From Deltaproteobacteria bacterium (GTDB lineage Bacteria; SAR324; NAC60-12), in NCBI GenBank assembly GCA_002683785.1, contig NYUB01000026.1:1-32322 (forward strand): a DNA stretch of 32,322 nt. The letters are read 5' to 3'. Positions 21,861 through 32,322 of this stretch are shown here, piece after piece. Numbering within the stretch: the first letter of the stretch is position 1; the number at the start of each line of letters is the position of its first letter. Position numbers and translations under genes: made by a program. Under the pieces are notes generated by a model that was given only the letters and a program-made list of their open reading frames with translations, did no database searches and was not told the origin of the DNA.

Positions 21861-22748
21861 TTGACAATGAGCAGTAAAACAGCATTCATCGGTTTGGGAG
21901 TGATGGGTTATCCCATGGCAGGGCATCTGAAAAAAGCAGGACATCAGGTAACTATATATAATAGAACAGCCTCCAAGGCTGAGCAATGGGTTCAGGAATA
22001 TGGAGGGATGAAAGCATCCACTCCAGCGGATGCCGCAAAAGAGGCCGATTTCGTCATGGCTTGTGTGGGGAATGATGATGATCTTCGTGAAATTACTTGT
22101 GGAACGAATGGAGCCTTTTCAGGAATGAGTCAAGGTTCGGTGTTCATTGACCATACCACTGTTTCCGCAAAGGTCACTCGGGAACTGTCTGAAAATGCTG
22201 CTGAACAGGGATTTTCATTTCTTGATGCACCCATTTCTGGAGGACAGGCGGGCGCAGAGAACGGGATGCTGACGGTCATGGTCGGAGGTGATCCAGCAGC
22301 CTTTGAACGGGCTCAACCCGTGATGGACGCCTACTCCAGAATGATCAAACTTCTCGGTCCATCCGGTTATGGGCAAATGACAAAGATGGTGAACCAGATC
22401 TGTATTGCAGGATTGGTCCAGGGTTTGTCGGAAGGAATCCACTTCGCAAAGGCCGTAGGGCTCGATGTGGAGGCTGTGATTGAAACGATTTCAAAAGGTG
22501 CCGCGCAATCTTGGCAGATGGAAAACCGTTACAAAACCATGAACGAAGGAGAATACAATCATGGGTTCGCGGTAGACTGGATGCGCAAGGATCTGGGCAT
22601 TACCCTGGAAGAAGCACGATCCAACGGAGCGCATCTTCCGGTGACCGCTTTGGTGGATCAGTTTTATTCTGAAATCCAGGCGATGGGAGGCAGACGCTGG
22701 GATACTTCCAGTCTGCTGGTCCGGTTGGAAGACCGCAGGGAAAAATAA
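21861..22748 (+). CDS. NAD(P)-dependent oxidoreductase, 3-hydroxyisobutyrate dehydrogenase family
   Basis: AFIGLGVMGYPMAGHLKKAGHQVTIYNRT, FLDAPISGGQAGAENGMLTVMVGG, GQMTKMVNQ. Confidence 0.93.
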   Translation: MTMSSKTAFIGLGVMGYPMAGHLKKAGHQVTIYNRTASKAEQWVQEYGGMKASTPADAAKEADFVMACVGNDDDLREITCGTNGAFSGMSQGSVFIDHTTVSAKVTRELSENAAEQGFSFLDAPISGGQAGAENGMLTVMVGGDPAAFERAQPVMDAYSRMIKLLGPSGYGQMTKMVNQICIAGLVQGLSEGIHFAKAVGLDVEAVIETISKGAAQSWQMENRYKTMNEGEYNHGFAVDWMRKDLGITLEEARSNGAHLPVTALVDQFYSEIQAMGGRRWDTSSLLVRLEDRREK

Positions 22749-22775
22749 AAACCCTCAAAAATAAGGAATCCTGGA

Positions 22776-24212
22776 TTGGAAGGAAAAGTTCTGATAGACG
22801 GAAAATGGCAAAATCCTGAATCTGGGGATTGCCTTTCTGTGACAGATCCCAGTGACGGAACAGAATTCTCGAAAATTGCTCGAGGCAAAGCCGAAGATGT
22901 GGAAAAAGCAGTCAAATCTGCTCAAGCGGCTTTAGACGGAGAGTGGGGCCGGATGATCCCTGTGGAACGGGGAAGGCTTCTCCACGCATTGGGCCAGCAG
23001 ATTTTGGAACATGAAGAGGAACTGGCAGAGCTCGAATCGAGGGATGTCGGCAAACCTCTACGCCAGTCACGGATTGATGTCCGGGCCTGTGCCAGATATT
23101 TCGAGTTTTATGCCGGAGCAGTGGACAAGATCCATGGTCAGACCATTCCCTACCTCGAAGGTTATACCGTTCTTACCCTGAGGGAGCCACATGGAGTGAC
23201 AGGACATATCATCCCTTGGAATTATCCGATGCAGATCATTGGACGTACCATCGGCGGGGCCCTGACCATGGGCAATGCCTGCGTGCTCAAACCGGGTGAA
23301 GAAGCTTCCCTGACATCCTTGAAAATCGGAGAATTGAGCCAAAAAGCAGGATTTCCTGCAGGGGTCTTCAACATCGTTCCGGGTTTGGGTGAAGAAGCCG
23401 GTGAAGCCCTTTTAAAAAACCCAGGGGTGGACCACTATTCTTTTACCGGTTCCACGGAGATCGGGATAAAGGTCCAGAAGGAAGCAGCACAGCGTGCAGT
23501 ACCCGTCACCCTGGAATTGGGAGGAAAATCCCCCCAGTTGGTTTTTGCCGATGCTGATCTGGAAAAAGCCCTCCCCTTTCTGGTCAATGCAGCCATTCAG
23601 AATGCAGGGCAAACGTGTTCCGCCGCAACCCGGGTGCTCATTGAAAAACCAGTTTTCGAGGAACTCTCTGAAAAACTGGCCAAGGCCATCAAAGCGCTTC
23701 GTGCTGGTCCCGCATTACACGATCTCGAATGCGGTCCTTTGATCAGCAAAACTCAGAAAGAAAGGGTGGAGGGATTTCTTCAGAGAGCTCGTCAGGATGG
23801 GATTGAATTCCTTGCGGAAGGAAGCATCGTCGAAGATGCGCCTGAAGGAGGGAACTATCTGGCCCCCTGCATGGTCGGAAGTGTGCCCCCCCGACACAGT
23901 CTGGCCCAGGAAGAAGTGTTTGGACCACTTCTGGTCACCATGCCTTTCGAAGGAGAGGAGGAAGCCATTGAACTCGCGAACAGCACGGTTTACGGTTTGG
24001 TCTCAGGGGTCTGGGCCCGGGATGGAGGTCGTCAACTGAGGGTTGCCAAGAGACTTAAATCCGGTCAGGTCTTCATCAACAATTACGGTGCCGGAGGAGG
24101 GGTAGAGCTTCCCTTCGGAGGAGTTAAATTAAGCGGGCACGGACGTGAAAAAGGGTTCGAAGCACTTTATGGTTTTTCAGTCACGAAAACCATAGCCATT
24201 CATCATGGATGA
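22776..24212 (+). CDS. Aldehyde dehydrogenase family protein (TTG start)
   Basis: GHIIPWNYPMQIIGRTIGGALTMGNACVLKPGEE, FTGSTEIG, VTLELGGKSPQLVFADADLE, NAGQTCSAATR. Confidence 0.95.
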   Translation: MEGKVLIDGKWQNPESGDCLSVTDPSDGTEFSKIARGKAEDVEKAVKSAQAALDGEWGRMIPVERGRLLHALGQQILEHEEELAELESRDVGKPLRQSRIDVRACARYFEFYAGAVDKIHGQTIPYLEGYTVLTLREPHGVTGHIIPWNYPMQIIGRTIGGALTMGNACVLKPGEEASLTSLKIGELSQKAGFPAGVFNIVPGLGEEAGEALLKNPGVDHYSFTGSTEIGIKVQKEAAQRAVPVTLELGGKSPQLVFADADLEKALPFLVNAAIQNAGQTCSAATRVLIEKPVFEELSEKLAKAIKALRAGPALHDLECGPLISKTQKERVEGFLQRARQDGIEFLAEGSIVEDAPEGGNYLAPCMVGSVPPRHSLAQEEVFGPLLVTMPFEGEEEAIELANSTVYGLVSGVWARDGGRQLRVAKRLKSGQVFINNYGAGGGVELPFGGVKLSGHGREKGFEALYGFSVTKTIAIHHG

Positions 24213-24961
24213 ACATGAGACTCAAAGATAAAACAGCAATTGTCACCGGTGCCGGGTCAGGTTTTGGTCGGGGCATCGCAACCCGGTTTGCCCTTGAGGG
24301 TGCAAGAGTGGGAGTCATTGACATCAATCATGATTCCGCTGTGCAGGTGGCAAATGAAATTGGAGAATCCGCATTTGCCATGGAAGCGGATGTCAGCAGC
24401 GATGAAGATGTTTCTCAGATGGTTCAGCAGAGTTTGTATCGTTTCGGAAAATTAGACATTCTGGTGAATAATGCTGGGACAACTCATCGTAACCGTCCGA
24501 TGACTGAGGTAACCGAGGAAGAGTACGAACGTATTTTTTCGGTCAACGTCAAATCAGTTTTTCTGAGTGCAAGACATGTGGTTCCGTTGATGAAAAAACA
24601 GGGTTACGGGGTGATCCTGAATGTGGCCTCGACTGCCGGAGTCAGACCCCGGCCAGGGCTGGTCTGGTATAATACATCCAAAGGCGCAATGATGACCGCA
24701 ACGAAAGCGATGGCCATTGAATTGGCTCCGGATAAAATCCGTGTCAATGCCATCAATCCAGTGGCCGGTGAAACGGGGATGCTTCACCTTTTTATGGGAG
24801 AAGATACTCCCGAAAAACGTGCACAGTTTATCTCAACCATTCCCTTGGGGAGACTCAGCCTTCCTAAAGACATGGCAAATGCGGCACTTTTTCTTTGTTC
24901 GGAGGAAGCAGAAATGATTACGGGTCTTTGTATGGAAGTCGATGGAGGTCGCTGTATTTAA
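24209..24961 (+). CDS. SDR family oxidoreductase
   Basis: AIVTGAGSGFGRGIATRFALEGARVGVIDI, LVNNAG, YNTSKGA; overlaps the ALDH stop by 4 nt (in-frame ATG at 24215 is an alternative start). Confidence 0.95.
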   Translation: MNMRLKDKTAIVTGAGSGFGRGIATRFALEGARVGVIDINHDSAVQVANEIGESAFAMEADVSSDEDVSQMVQQSLYRFGKLDILVNNAGTTHRNRPMTEVTEEEYERIFSVNVKSVFLSARHVVPLMKKQGYGVILNVASTAGVRPRPGLVWYNTSKGAMMTATKAMAIELAPDKIRVNAINPVAGETGMLHLFMGEDTPEKRAQFISTIPLGRLSLPKDMANAALFLCSEEAEMITGLCMEVDGGRCI

Positions 24962-25006
24962 TAACAATCCAATTATTACTAATTTTTTGCGTAAATGGGT
25001 TAAAGA

Positions 25007-25447
25007 ATGATTGATAAAAAACTGATTGGTTATGAGTTTAAAACTGTGACCTTACCTGTGGAAGAAGGTCGATTGCGTTTTGTTGCTAAGGCGATTGGAG
25101 AAAAGAATCCTATCTACAGTGATCTTAAAGCGGCTAAGTCAGCAGGTCATCCTACCCTGCCAGCGCCACCGACTTTTGTATTCATGCTAGAAGTTGATGC
25201 AGTGGATCTTCAGGATTTGGTCCAACTGTTTGGTTGTAACTTGGGACAACTCCTCCATGGTGAACAAGGTTTTGTCTACCATGCTGCAGTTTATGCCGGA
25301 GACAGAATTAGCGTTAAAAAAAAGGTGGTGGACATTTATGACAAGAAAAACGGCAAGCTTGAATTCATCCTCACCAAAAATGATTTCATCAATCAGGACG
25401 GGGTCAAAGTTGCAGAAACAACAACTAACTACGTCATCAGGAATTGA
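25007..25447 (+). CDS. MaoC N-terminal-type (FAS1-like) dehydratase
   Basis: YEFKTVTLPVEEGRLRFVAKAIGEKNPIYSDLKAAKSAGHPTLPAPPTFVFML, HGEQGFVYHAAVYAGDRIS. Confidence 0.88.
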   Translation: MIDKKLIGYEFKTVTLPVEEGRLRFVAKAIGEKNPIYSDLKAAKSAGHPTLPAPPTFVFMLEVDAVDLQDLVQLFGCNLGQLLHGEQGFVYHAAVYAGDRISVKKKVVDIYDKKNGKLEFILTKNDFINQDGVKVAETTTNYVIRN

Positions 25448-25456
25448 AAGGGATTC

Positions 25457-25873
25457 ATGTCAAAACCATCTTATGCATCTGTTCAGGTTGGGGACGAAAT
25501 TCCATCACTTTCCACCGAACCGATTACCCGTCATACTCTGGCTCTCTATTGTGGGGCTTCTGGAGATCACAATCCCATCCATGTAGACATTGATTATGCT
25601 AAGGAATCGGGACTGGATGATGTGATCGCTCATGGGATGCTTTCAATGGCCTACCTCGGCAGACTGGTCACCAACTGGGTTTCTCAGGAATCTGTTCGGG
25701 AACTAAAAACCCGATTCACCGCGATGACCCTCGTGGGTGATACCGTCACCTGTCGTGGAAAAATTACGGAAAAATTCACTGAATCCGGAGAAAACCGTGT
25801 CCGCCTGGAACTCACCGCTGAAACCCCACGAGAACAGTCCCTGGTTGGTGAGGCCGTCATTGCACTGGATTGA
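25457..25873 (+). CDS. MaoC family dehydratase / (R)-hydratase
   Basis: YCGASGDHNPIHVDIDYAKESGLDDVIAHGMLSMAYLGRL hydratase-2 motif. Confidence 0.92.
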   Translation: MSKPSYASVQVGDEIPSLSTEPITRHTLALYCGASGDHNPIHVDIDYAKESGLDDVIAHGMLSMAYLGRLVTNWVSQESVRELKTRFTAMTLVGDTVTCRGKITEKFTESGENRVRLELTAETPREQSLVGEAVIALD

Positions 25874-25876
25874 ACG

Positions 25877-27082
25877 ATGGCCGGACCCCTGGCCAGCCTG
25901 AAGGTTCTTGATTTTACCACCCTCCTTCCGGGGCCATTTGCCAGCATGATTTTGGCAGATCTTGGCGCCTCGGTGCTTCGTGTCGAGGCTCCTGGCCGTC
26001 CAGATCTGGTCCGCGAAATGAGGCAACGTGCTGGTTCCGTTTCCGCAGCACATGCCACCGTCAACCGTTCCAAAAGATGCATCTCCCTTGATCTCAAAGT
26101 TCCGGATTCCCTCCAGTTGGTGGATCAATTGCTGGAGAGTCATGACATTTTGCTGGAACAGTTCCGCCCCGGAGTCATGCAACGACTGGGACTTGGTTAT
26201 GAACAACTACAAGTTGAACATCCCAAATTGATCTACTGCTCCCTTACCGGTTATGGCCAAACAGGCCCTTACCGGGATCGAGCCGGACATGATATCAACT
26301 ACCTCGCACTTTCAGGCTTAAGTGAAACCAGCCGCAGAAAAGATTCCGGACCTGTTCCTTTTGGATTCCAACTGGCCGATATCGCAGGAGGATCTTATCA
26401 CATGGCCATGGCAGTCCTGGCTGCTGTCATACACCGTCAGCAGACCGGAGAAGGGCAGCACATTGATTTGAGCATGACCGATGCTGTTTTCAGCATGCAT
26501 GCTTTGGCAGGAGCCGAATGGCTCAGTGGTGCCGAAGAACCTTCAGCAGAAAACGGAATGTTGAATGGAGGAACGCTATATGATTATTATGAAACCCTGG
26601 ATGGGCGTTGGATTTCGGTCGGAAGCCTAGAACCTGTTTTCCTGAAACGGCTTTGTCTCCAGATGGGAATCCCTGAAGAGCAGAACAGCCACCTGGATGA
26701 TGCGAAATCACAGAACAGACTCAAAGAAAAATTACGTGCAGGTTTCAAAAGAAAATATTTCCAGGAATGGGTAGAAATTTTCCAAATGTTGGATGCCTGT
26801 GTGGAACCGGTACTCACAATGTCTGAAGCAGCAAATCACCCACAACTTCAGGAGCGCGGGATGATCAAAAAGGTGCCAAATGAAGAAGGAGACCTCATTC
26901 TACAAATCTCCTCCCCTTTTCGTTTTTCAAAGACTCCTGTGAATTCTGGATTTTCCGGTCAAATCCCGGGAGCCGACACCTTGTCCACCCTCAGGGAACT
27001 GGGATGGGAAGATGAGAGAATCAAAGCATTTCTTGAAACTGGTGCCTGCGGAGTAGGTTTTAGAGGGGATAGTAATAATTGA
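25877..27082 (+). CDS. CaiB/BaiF family (type III) CoA-transferase
   Basis: VLDFTTLLPGPFASMILADLGASVLRVEAPGRPDLVREM, NRSKRCISLDLKVPD, YCSLTGYGQTGPYRDRAGHDINYLALSG. Confidence 0.95.
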   Translation: MAGPLASLKVLDFTTLLPGPFASMILADLGASVLRVEAPGRPDLVREMRQRAGSVSAAHATVNRSKRCISLDLKVPDSLQLVDQLLESHDILLEQFRPGVMQRLGLGYEQLQVEHPKLIYCSLTGYGQTGPYRDRAGHDINYLALSGLSETSRRKDSGPVPFGFQLADIAGGSYHMAMAVLAAVIHRQQTGEGQHIDLSMTDAVFSMHALAGAEWLSGAEEPSAENGMLNGGTLYDYYETLDGRWISVGSLEPVFLKRLCLQMGIPEEQNSHLDDAKSQNRLKEKLRAGFKRKYFQEWVEIFQMLDACVEPVLTMSEAANHPQLQERGMIKKVPNEEGDLILQISSPFRFSKTPVNSGFSGQIPGADTLSTLRELGWEDERIKAFLETGACGVGFRGDSNN

Positions 27083-30573: not shown

Positions 30574-30649
30574 GAAGATCACATGGATTTTGCATGGAAA
30601 TGATTCTAATTTGAGATCTACTACCAAGCCACTCAGCAAAGTGAGTTTT

Positions 30650-31306
30650 ATGAAAAAAAATTACATGGCTTTTCCCAACAAGCTCTATTCGGTCAGCCTA
30701 TTAATGATGCTTTTGCTTTTAGTACCAAACGCCTGGGCGCAAGAGGACAGCTTTTTCAACACGGAAAGCATTCGCAGCCAACTTTTCAACCGTATGAAAG
30801 ACCGTAAAGAGAAAAAAAACGCACGGAAGATCAACCTTACCATCCTGCATGGTGTTTTCGGCAGGATGACCGATCCGGAAAGTATTTGGGTGAGAATCGA
30901 TAGCCGGACCGAATTTCGAAAATGGACCTATAAGTTGTCCAAACAAAGCCTTAATTTGCCCCGTCAGGAAATCCGGGTCTGGCTCAAATATGTCTCACCA
31001 AGTCAATCCGTCAGTTTCGGGAAGGAATACAATACCTGGTTCAAAAAAAAGGTCGTCTTTGAGATGGGAAAGATTTTTTACAACCGGAACGTTCGTGTCG
31101 ATTATGATTATTCAGAAAAACTCTACAGGATGGAAGGAACGGTTTGGTCTGGAGATACCAACCTCAATCTTTGGATGATCCGTAATGGCTGGTCGTATTA
31201 CCTACTTCCCGATGAACAACCAGTAGAGCATGAAGAATTGATTGCAGCAGAAAAAGAGGCTCGCCAAAAACAAGTTGGGCTTTGGAAAGCGGAATTGCAA
31301 CAGTAA
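30650..31306 (+). CDS. Secreted SNase/thermonuclease-fold protein, probably catalytically inactive
   Basis: Signal peptide MKKNYMAFPNKLYSVSLLMMLLLLVPNAWAQ; RVDYDYSEKLYRMEGTVWSGDTNLNLWMIRNGWSYYLLPDEQPVEHEELIAAEKEARQKQVGLWK matches the SNase C-terminal half. ATG 30650 preferred over 30590. Confidence 0.75.
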   Translation: MKKNYMAFPNKLYSVSLLMMLLLLVPNAWAQEDSFFNTESIRSQLFNRMKDRKEKKNARKINLTILHGVFGRMTDPESIWVRIDSRTEFRKWTYKLSKQSLNLPRQEIRVWLKYVSPSQSVSFGKEYNTWFKKKVVFEMGKIFYNRNVRVDYDYSEKLYRMEGTVWSGDTNLNLWMIRNGWSYYLLPDEQPVEHEELIAAEKEARQKQVGLWKAELQQ

Positions 31307-31338: not shown

Positions 31339-31394
31339 GATTCAATTCCGATTCAATTCCGATTCAATTCCTCAATTCCTCAATTCCTCAATTC
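31339..31394. repeat. Short tandem repeat (GATTCAATTCC)x3 followed by (TCAATTCC)x2-TCAATTC
   Basis: Direct reading of the sequence; the stop codon of the minus-strand selenoprotein lies inside it. Confidence 0.95.
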
Positions 31395-32243
31395 TTTGTC
31401 GTGTCGTTCAATAAAGGGTAATCCTTCCTCCATTTCTTCAAATCGGTCTCTTTTCCAGCGAAAAGGGCTGTCCACGATGGTTCCTGGTTCTTTTACGGTT
31501 TCCAGTAGTTTCAAACTTTCCATCACAATCCTCCTTTGTTGAGCAGAACGGAAAGGTTCACCAAGAGCATGGCCATAGGGGTATCGGAGGTGGTAGGCCC
31601 TCGGAGGATTGACTGAGGAACAGATTTTAATGCTGATGCACAGACTGACTGTGGAGATGCCCCGGCTTTCGATTTCACGTTGGACCAGACCGACCGTCTG
31701 ATTGCAAAGGCCTCAGGAGGGAACAAGCAGGGCAATATCAGCCTGCATTTGCTGGACTTTGTCAGCCGCAGCAACAGAAGTTTTCTGGACCAATGTTTCA
31801 ATCAACGTTCCATCGATGTGTCCCATGAAGGAAATGAACTGATCCGTAAGGGAACCCATTTTTCCTTCGTTGACAAGTTCCTGCATTACCTGCCATGGAA
31901 AAACAAGGTTAAGGTCTTGATCGGCATCACGATGGTCGTAATAATCATGAGTAATCATCAATTCCTCCGGCTTCGCCTGGCTTGAAATCATTCGGAAACT
32001 CGGATCACCATTGGAATCGGTCATGTCAAAGGGAGTATCATTTTTTTGATGGACTCCTCCGGTTGTTACCAAAACCAGCCTGCACTCTTCAAGCGGTTTC
32101 CCCAAGGGAGTCCAAGGGACCTGATCGTTCTGAACGGCCTGGTATTTCCTTTGCCATGATTCCTTGACGAGATCCATTTTGAACAACGCCAGTCCAAGAC
32201 GGTTTTTTAAACGCTTTACGAAAGGATGAACGTGCAGATTCAC
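31380..32243 (-). CDS. Glycine/sarcosine/betaine reductase selenoprotein B-like protein with in-frame UGA (Sec) at 31713-31715
   Basis: 176 codons (GTG start; PWTPLGKPLEECRLVLVTTGGVHQKNDTPFDMTDSNGDPSFR, ITHDYYDHRDADQDLNLVFPWQVMQELVNEGKMGSLTDQFISFMGHIDG, ADIALLVPS) then TGA, then 110 codons in the same frame: GLCNQTVGLVQREIESRGISTVCLSISIKICSSVNPPRAYHLRYPYGHALGEPFRSAQQRRIVMESLKLLETVKEPGTIVDSPFRWKRDRFEEMEEGLPFIERHDKELRN, then TGA at 31380-31382. The ORF track reports only the pre-UGA part. Confidence 0.85.
31684..31698 (-). promoter_or_regulatory. Candidate bacterial SECIS element (apical hairpin)
   Basis: mRNA after UGA: GGCCUUUGCAAUCAGAC-GGUCG-GUCUGGU. Perfect 5-bp stem (7 bp including U-G and A-U extension), loop with GGUC, loop starting 17 nt after the UGA. 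Confidence 0.75.
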
Positions 32244-32322
32244 GAAAGGCTTCTTCGTTTAAATGAATCGATTCAGCAAGCCTCAGAAAAAGCGCAACGC
32301 AGTTTGGATGAAATACGGCTGG
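32226..32322 (+). CDS. Partial N-terminus of a plus-strand protein running off the window
   Basis: Open frame MNVQIHERLLRLNESIQQASEKAQRSLDEIRL with coiled-coil character; AAAGGA sits 5 nt before an in-frame GTG at 32232. Overlaps the proposed selenoprotein start head-to-head. Confidence 0.3.
   Translation, partial: MNVQIHERLLRLNESIQQASEKAQRSLDEIRL

Follow-up and report, generated by a model that had tools for sequence, protein, structure and literature searches.

A PrdB-like selenoprotein gene with an in-frame UGA in a SAR324 genome and its possible role in reductive cleavage

The minus-strand gene near the end of the window (the whole stretch of 32,322 nucleotides that was analysed) is, on comparison of its sequence, almost certainly a selenoprotein gene, in which the UGA at 31715-31713 is read as selenocysteine. 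The reading favoured here is that its product acts as a stand-alone PrdB-type selenoprotein performing the reductive cleavage of a small substrate, and we put the probability of this statement as a whole at roughly 0.6.

The reading frame opens with a GTG at 32243, continues for 176 codons to the TGA at 31715-31713, and then remains open for another 110 codons to a TGA at 31382-31380 (Table 1), reproducing the arrangement described in a first-pass annotation of this DNA. With the base composition of the window, 110 codons would stay open by chance in about 0.25% of cases; above this figure, the main evidence that points to a real read-through gene is homology. TGA is otherwise a normal stop here, with no general reassignment: it closes 12 of 24 other main genes of the window that were checked. 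The start is probably GTG 32243, because no other start codon lies ahead of the conserved N-terminal helix region and a relative of the same genus has TTG at the equivalent position. Automatic gene calling gives an ORF of 176 residues ending at the UGA; gene callers cut the selenoprotein at this codon and the active-site half is lost. The last codons and the stop are covered by two perfect tandem arrays that overlap (31339-31394; periods 11 and 8); in the same-genus genome G001, the sequence following the stop is free of them.

Table 1. Features of the selenoprotein locus and its neighbours in the window.
Feature	Position	Strand	Remarks
PrdB-like selenoprotein gene (predicted)	31380..32243	minus	GTG start; 287 residues; U177; end TGA 31382-31380
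Predicted selenocysteine codon (UGA), residue 177	31713..31715	minus	Same-column TGA in 31/31 orthologous loci; Cys in G060
UGLC (UxxC) redox motif	31704..31715	minus	Resolving Cys180 at 31706-31704; U177 and C180 invariant in 22-row alignment
Bacterial SECIS-like hairpin	31684..31702	minus	7-bp stem; 5-nt loop GGUCG; covariation; fits PMC13188914 Fig. 2
Start of yggS-like gene (PF01168)	32226..32322	plus	Divergent, runs past window end; neighbour, candidate partner status not implied
SNase-domain gene	30590..31306	plus	Convergent; neighbour, candidate partner status not implied

The first-pass annotation had placed the UGA at the selenocysteine position of its family, within a UxxC motif, and this is borne out by the single TGA column of the 31 orthologous loci, all from the window's own group, and by the distant bacterial homologue G060, which has Cys at the Sec site (VPACVVCHE). 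The orthologues follow the motif [PS]-U-G-x-C-[NH]-Q-[TS]-V-G-L, with A or S noted before U. A homologue search over 98 genomes gave a match in 50, and a phylum-wide profile search returned 68 matches, 67 of them with an in-frame TGA; the lone match lacking it (G026) ends short of the Sec site, at profile position 143. The window's own genome, an assembly of 3.64 Mb in 173 contigs that is 87% complete, contains three PrdB-like genes with one in-frame TGA apiece. A comparison of two species of the genus gives a dN/dS of 0.10 before the UGA and 0.105 after it, with an identity of 82% upstream and 81% downstream; the part after the UGA is therefore translated and under equal constraint by purifying selection.

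Just downstream of the UGA lies a hairpin whose stem begins 10 nt and whose loop starts 17 nt after this codon. The bacterial SECIS model describes a loop of 3-9 nt with G in the first two positions, a stem of 4-16 bp, a spacing of 16-37 nt, and an energy <= -7.5 kcal/mol (PMC13188914), and the hairpin agrees with it in all of these (loop GGUCG, 7 bp, 17 nt, -8.6 kcal/mol). In a set of 25 distinct sequences, pairing holds in 98.3% of cells, compensatory changes on both sides of the pair occur in 3 of the 7 stem pairs, and sliding the stem partners out of register abolishes the signal of pairing and covariation. The folding energy is no better than that of shuffled sequences (z 0.36) and not unusual for the composition, so the case for a SECIS element rests on conservation and covariation. 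An Rfam search gave no match at the hairpin. The loop of the SECIS element of E. coli fdhF is similar.

The selenocysteine machinery, to which the first-pass annotation had tied its reading by way of selA, selB, selC, and selD, was found in the window's genome for selA (526 bits), selB (362 bits), and a tRNA-Sec with anticodon UCA (62.6 bits), with no selD above the cut-off in this 87%-complete assembly. Of the 49 genomes of the group that were searched, 42 have a selD above the cut-off, itself almost always containing an in-frame TGA, and the copy in G001 is interrupted by the end of its contig; the absence of selD here is most likely due to an assembly gap. Weak tRNA-Sec hits (L007-L010) were rejected as ordinary tRNAs by ARAGORN, and weaker selB hits were rejected as below the cut-off.

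The protein matches the Pfam GRDB family (PF07355) with 43.5 bits over residues 24-146, above the gathering score of 22 bits, and its U177 and C180 columns are invariant in the alignment, in line with the comparison to PF07355-type proteins that had been proposed for it. Its best family model is PrdB (TIGR04483), with 156.5 bits over residues 43-265, spanning the UGA and covering model positions 19-236 of 238; this score is below the equivalog cut-off of 300 bits. The glycine-reductase models give 55-65 bits, and the GrdB model TIGR01917 (cut-off 602 bits) gives 57.3 bits, over model positions 187-429 only. The protein lacks the N-terminal half of GrdB and also its UxxCxxC motif, reading UGLCNQTV where the true GrdB of G087 has UGTCTRCG. 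With the NCBIfam models, PrdB-like members score 70-175 bits for PrdB, all below 300, against 685 for GrdB in the case of the G087 protein. In the tree, where some long branches occur and several deep forks lack resolution, and by their motifs, the window's clade (UGxC) stands apart from two further clades present in the same genome, on C132 (UPNC) and C30 (UPVC), and from the true GrdB (UGTCxxC) of G040 and G087. Because of these scores, the tree, and the motifs, the gene is best regarded as a PrdB-like homologue, neither a certified PrdB nor a GrdB; the earlier description as GrdB-like needs correcting, the protein being closer to PrdB (156 vs 57 bits). PDB sequence searches gave no relevant relative, one returning only a phosphate-loop protein (E 0.03), and a structure predicted from two sequences was poor (pLDDT 43.8) and so lends no independent support.

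Among the homologues, the one at L124 (G050:C14, 5234-5926) carries the motif UPLD and misses the second Cys of UxxC. The C132 paralogue of the window's genome (L078, G000:C132, 4330-6770) is a frame of 412 residues whose long C-terminal region is unassigned, and it lies directly downstream of genes for an ABC-3 metal-type transporter permease and an ABC ATPase. Frames of 697 and 763 residues in G031 and G035 were rejected as fusions, since they look like spurious upstream open frame.

The PrdB of D-proline reductase and the window protein share a single catalytic domain of similar size, a UxxC motif, and a full-length match to TIGR04483, with Sec at position 152 of 242 in C. sticklandii PrdB (PMC3091704) and 177 of 287 here. 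They differ in that the window protein reaches only about half of the cut-off, no PrdA was found in its genome, and no prd operon surrounds it. With selenoprotein B of glycine, sarcosine, and betaine reductase (GrdB/GrdF/GrdH; TIGR01917, NF040794, NF040795), it shares the catalytic C-terminal domain and a similarly placed Sec (PF07355); it differs in having no N-terminal half, a UxxC instead of a UxxCxxC, scores far under the cut-offs, and no GrdE or GrdA found in the genome. Homologues of PrdB with Sec in a UxxC motif have been on record from marine metagenomes since 2005 and are among the most abundant marine selenoproteins in the published surveys, ranking third in abundance among the known families of the Sargasso Sea set with 42 genes (PMC1088965) and counting 235 genes as 'proline reductase PrdB' in the Global Ocean Sampling data (PMC2398784). 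Going by these descriptions (pfam07355, UxxC, Sec), the window gene would count there. It is thus a member of an already catalogued Sec-PrdB-like family as these reports describe it, and not a new kind of selenoprotein. A literature search for PrdB together with SAR324 gave no match. Less clear in the literature consulted is the occurrence of such PrdB genes without PrdA, which was looked at here in 49 mostly incomplete genomes.

The first-pass annotation had suggested an orphan from the window alone; searches of these 49 genomes support this with respect to GrdA and GrdE/PrdA. The window's genome (G000) has no match to PF09338 (GrdE family), found once among the 49, in G040, a genome that has a true GrdB as well; G000 has no GrdA (PF04723), likewise found in one of the 49. 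PrdA (TIGR04480) was found in none of the 49, G000 included, a negative without a true positive control, since in a later search this model reached only a GrdE-like frame beside the GrdB gene of G087. Partner genes, like selD, could sit in gaps, because the assembly is 87% complete.

In D-proline reductase, the pyruvoyl group of PrdA binds the substrate and the PrdB selenolate attacks the alpha carbon; a Cys then resolves the selenoether, leaving a selenide-sulfide for PrdC to reduce (PMC3091704). A comparable reductive-cleavage mechanism for the window protein, proposed by analogy, has about even odds. By comparison, the UGA is decoded as selenocysteine, with the hairpin just behind it, so that a PrdB/GrdB catalytic domain carries a UxxC centre; the U177 selenolate may attack an activated carbon-heteroatom bond of a small substrate, C180 would resolve the selenoether to a selenenylsulfide, and a thioredoxin-like donor could reduce the latter. 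The whole would correspond to the PrdB half-reaction without a pyruvoyl partner, carried out by a stand-alone selenol/thiol reductase, and as no such partner was found, the substrate is probably something other than an amine bound in the manner of the D-proline and glycine reductases. Aligned by eye, THDYYDHRDADQDLNLVFPWQ of the window protein runs free of gaps against the substrate-side stretch of true GrdB, AHGGYDPVYANEDPNRVLPVD, in the conserved HGGYD...LP region of GrdB, and H99, Y101, H104, D106, D110, and P116 are invariant or nearly so in the 22-row alignment. This shared stretch and its conserved H/Y/D residues point to a retained catalytic pocket, not a bare thiol-exchange motif.

The main rival to reductive cleavage is that the orphan domain works as a thiol-dependent peroxidase or general disulfide reductase, with the UxxC serving redox protection. 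In its favour, UxxC motifs are common in thiol redox chemistry, the searches gave no pyruvoyl partner, and a reference cited in PMC3091704 is titled for a peroxidase activity of GrdB; against it, residues far from the UxxC are strongly conserved, among them the H/Y/D stretch found in GrdB too, which speaks for a specific substrate site and leaves this explanation rather unlikely. That the protein is instead the PrdB subunit of an ordinary D-proline reductase, with prdA in an assembly gap or too diverged to detect, would suit the full-length match to the PrdB model and the 87% completeness of the genome; it is improbable given a score of half the equivalog cut-off (156.5 vs 300) and the partner searches, in which PF09338 appeared only in G040 and TIGR04480, lacking a proper PrdA positive control, in none of the 49 genomes. 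A true stop at the TGA, through a pseudogene, an assembly error, or two separate proteins, agrees with the automatically called 176-residue ORF and would be very surprising: dozens of genomes with separate assemblies share this TGA, the sequences before and after it are under equal selection (dN/dS ~0.10), the hairpin is conserved, and Sec machinery is present. The first-pass annotation had likewise considered a pseudogene or sequencing error unlikely.

Beyond the reductive cleavage proposed for this one protein, the phylum may hold several paralogue clades of partner-free PrdB-like selenoenzymes reducing substrates other than D-proline or glycine, an extension that we advance tentatively, at slightly less than even odds. 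If true, some of the 'proline reductase PrdB' that is so abundant in marine data would be misnamed. Surveys count such proteins as proline reductase; the missing pyruvoyl partner suggests a different reaction.

The starts of the selenoprotein gene and the divergent yggS-like gene overlap by 18 bp (32226-32243), both here and in G001. The neighbours yggS, the SNase-domain gene, and lptD recur in part of the family and differ in other genera; they are therefore weak evidence of function, and their conservation looks like general synteny. Elsewhere in the window, plus-strand genes at 21861-27082 for a 3-hydroxyisobutyrate-type dehydrogenase, an aldehyde dehydrogenase, an SDR, two MaoC-like proteins, and a CoA-transferase III form a likely catabolic operon.
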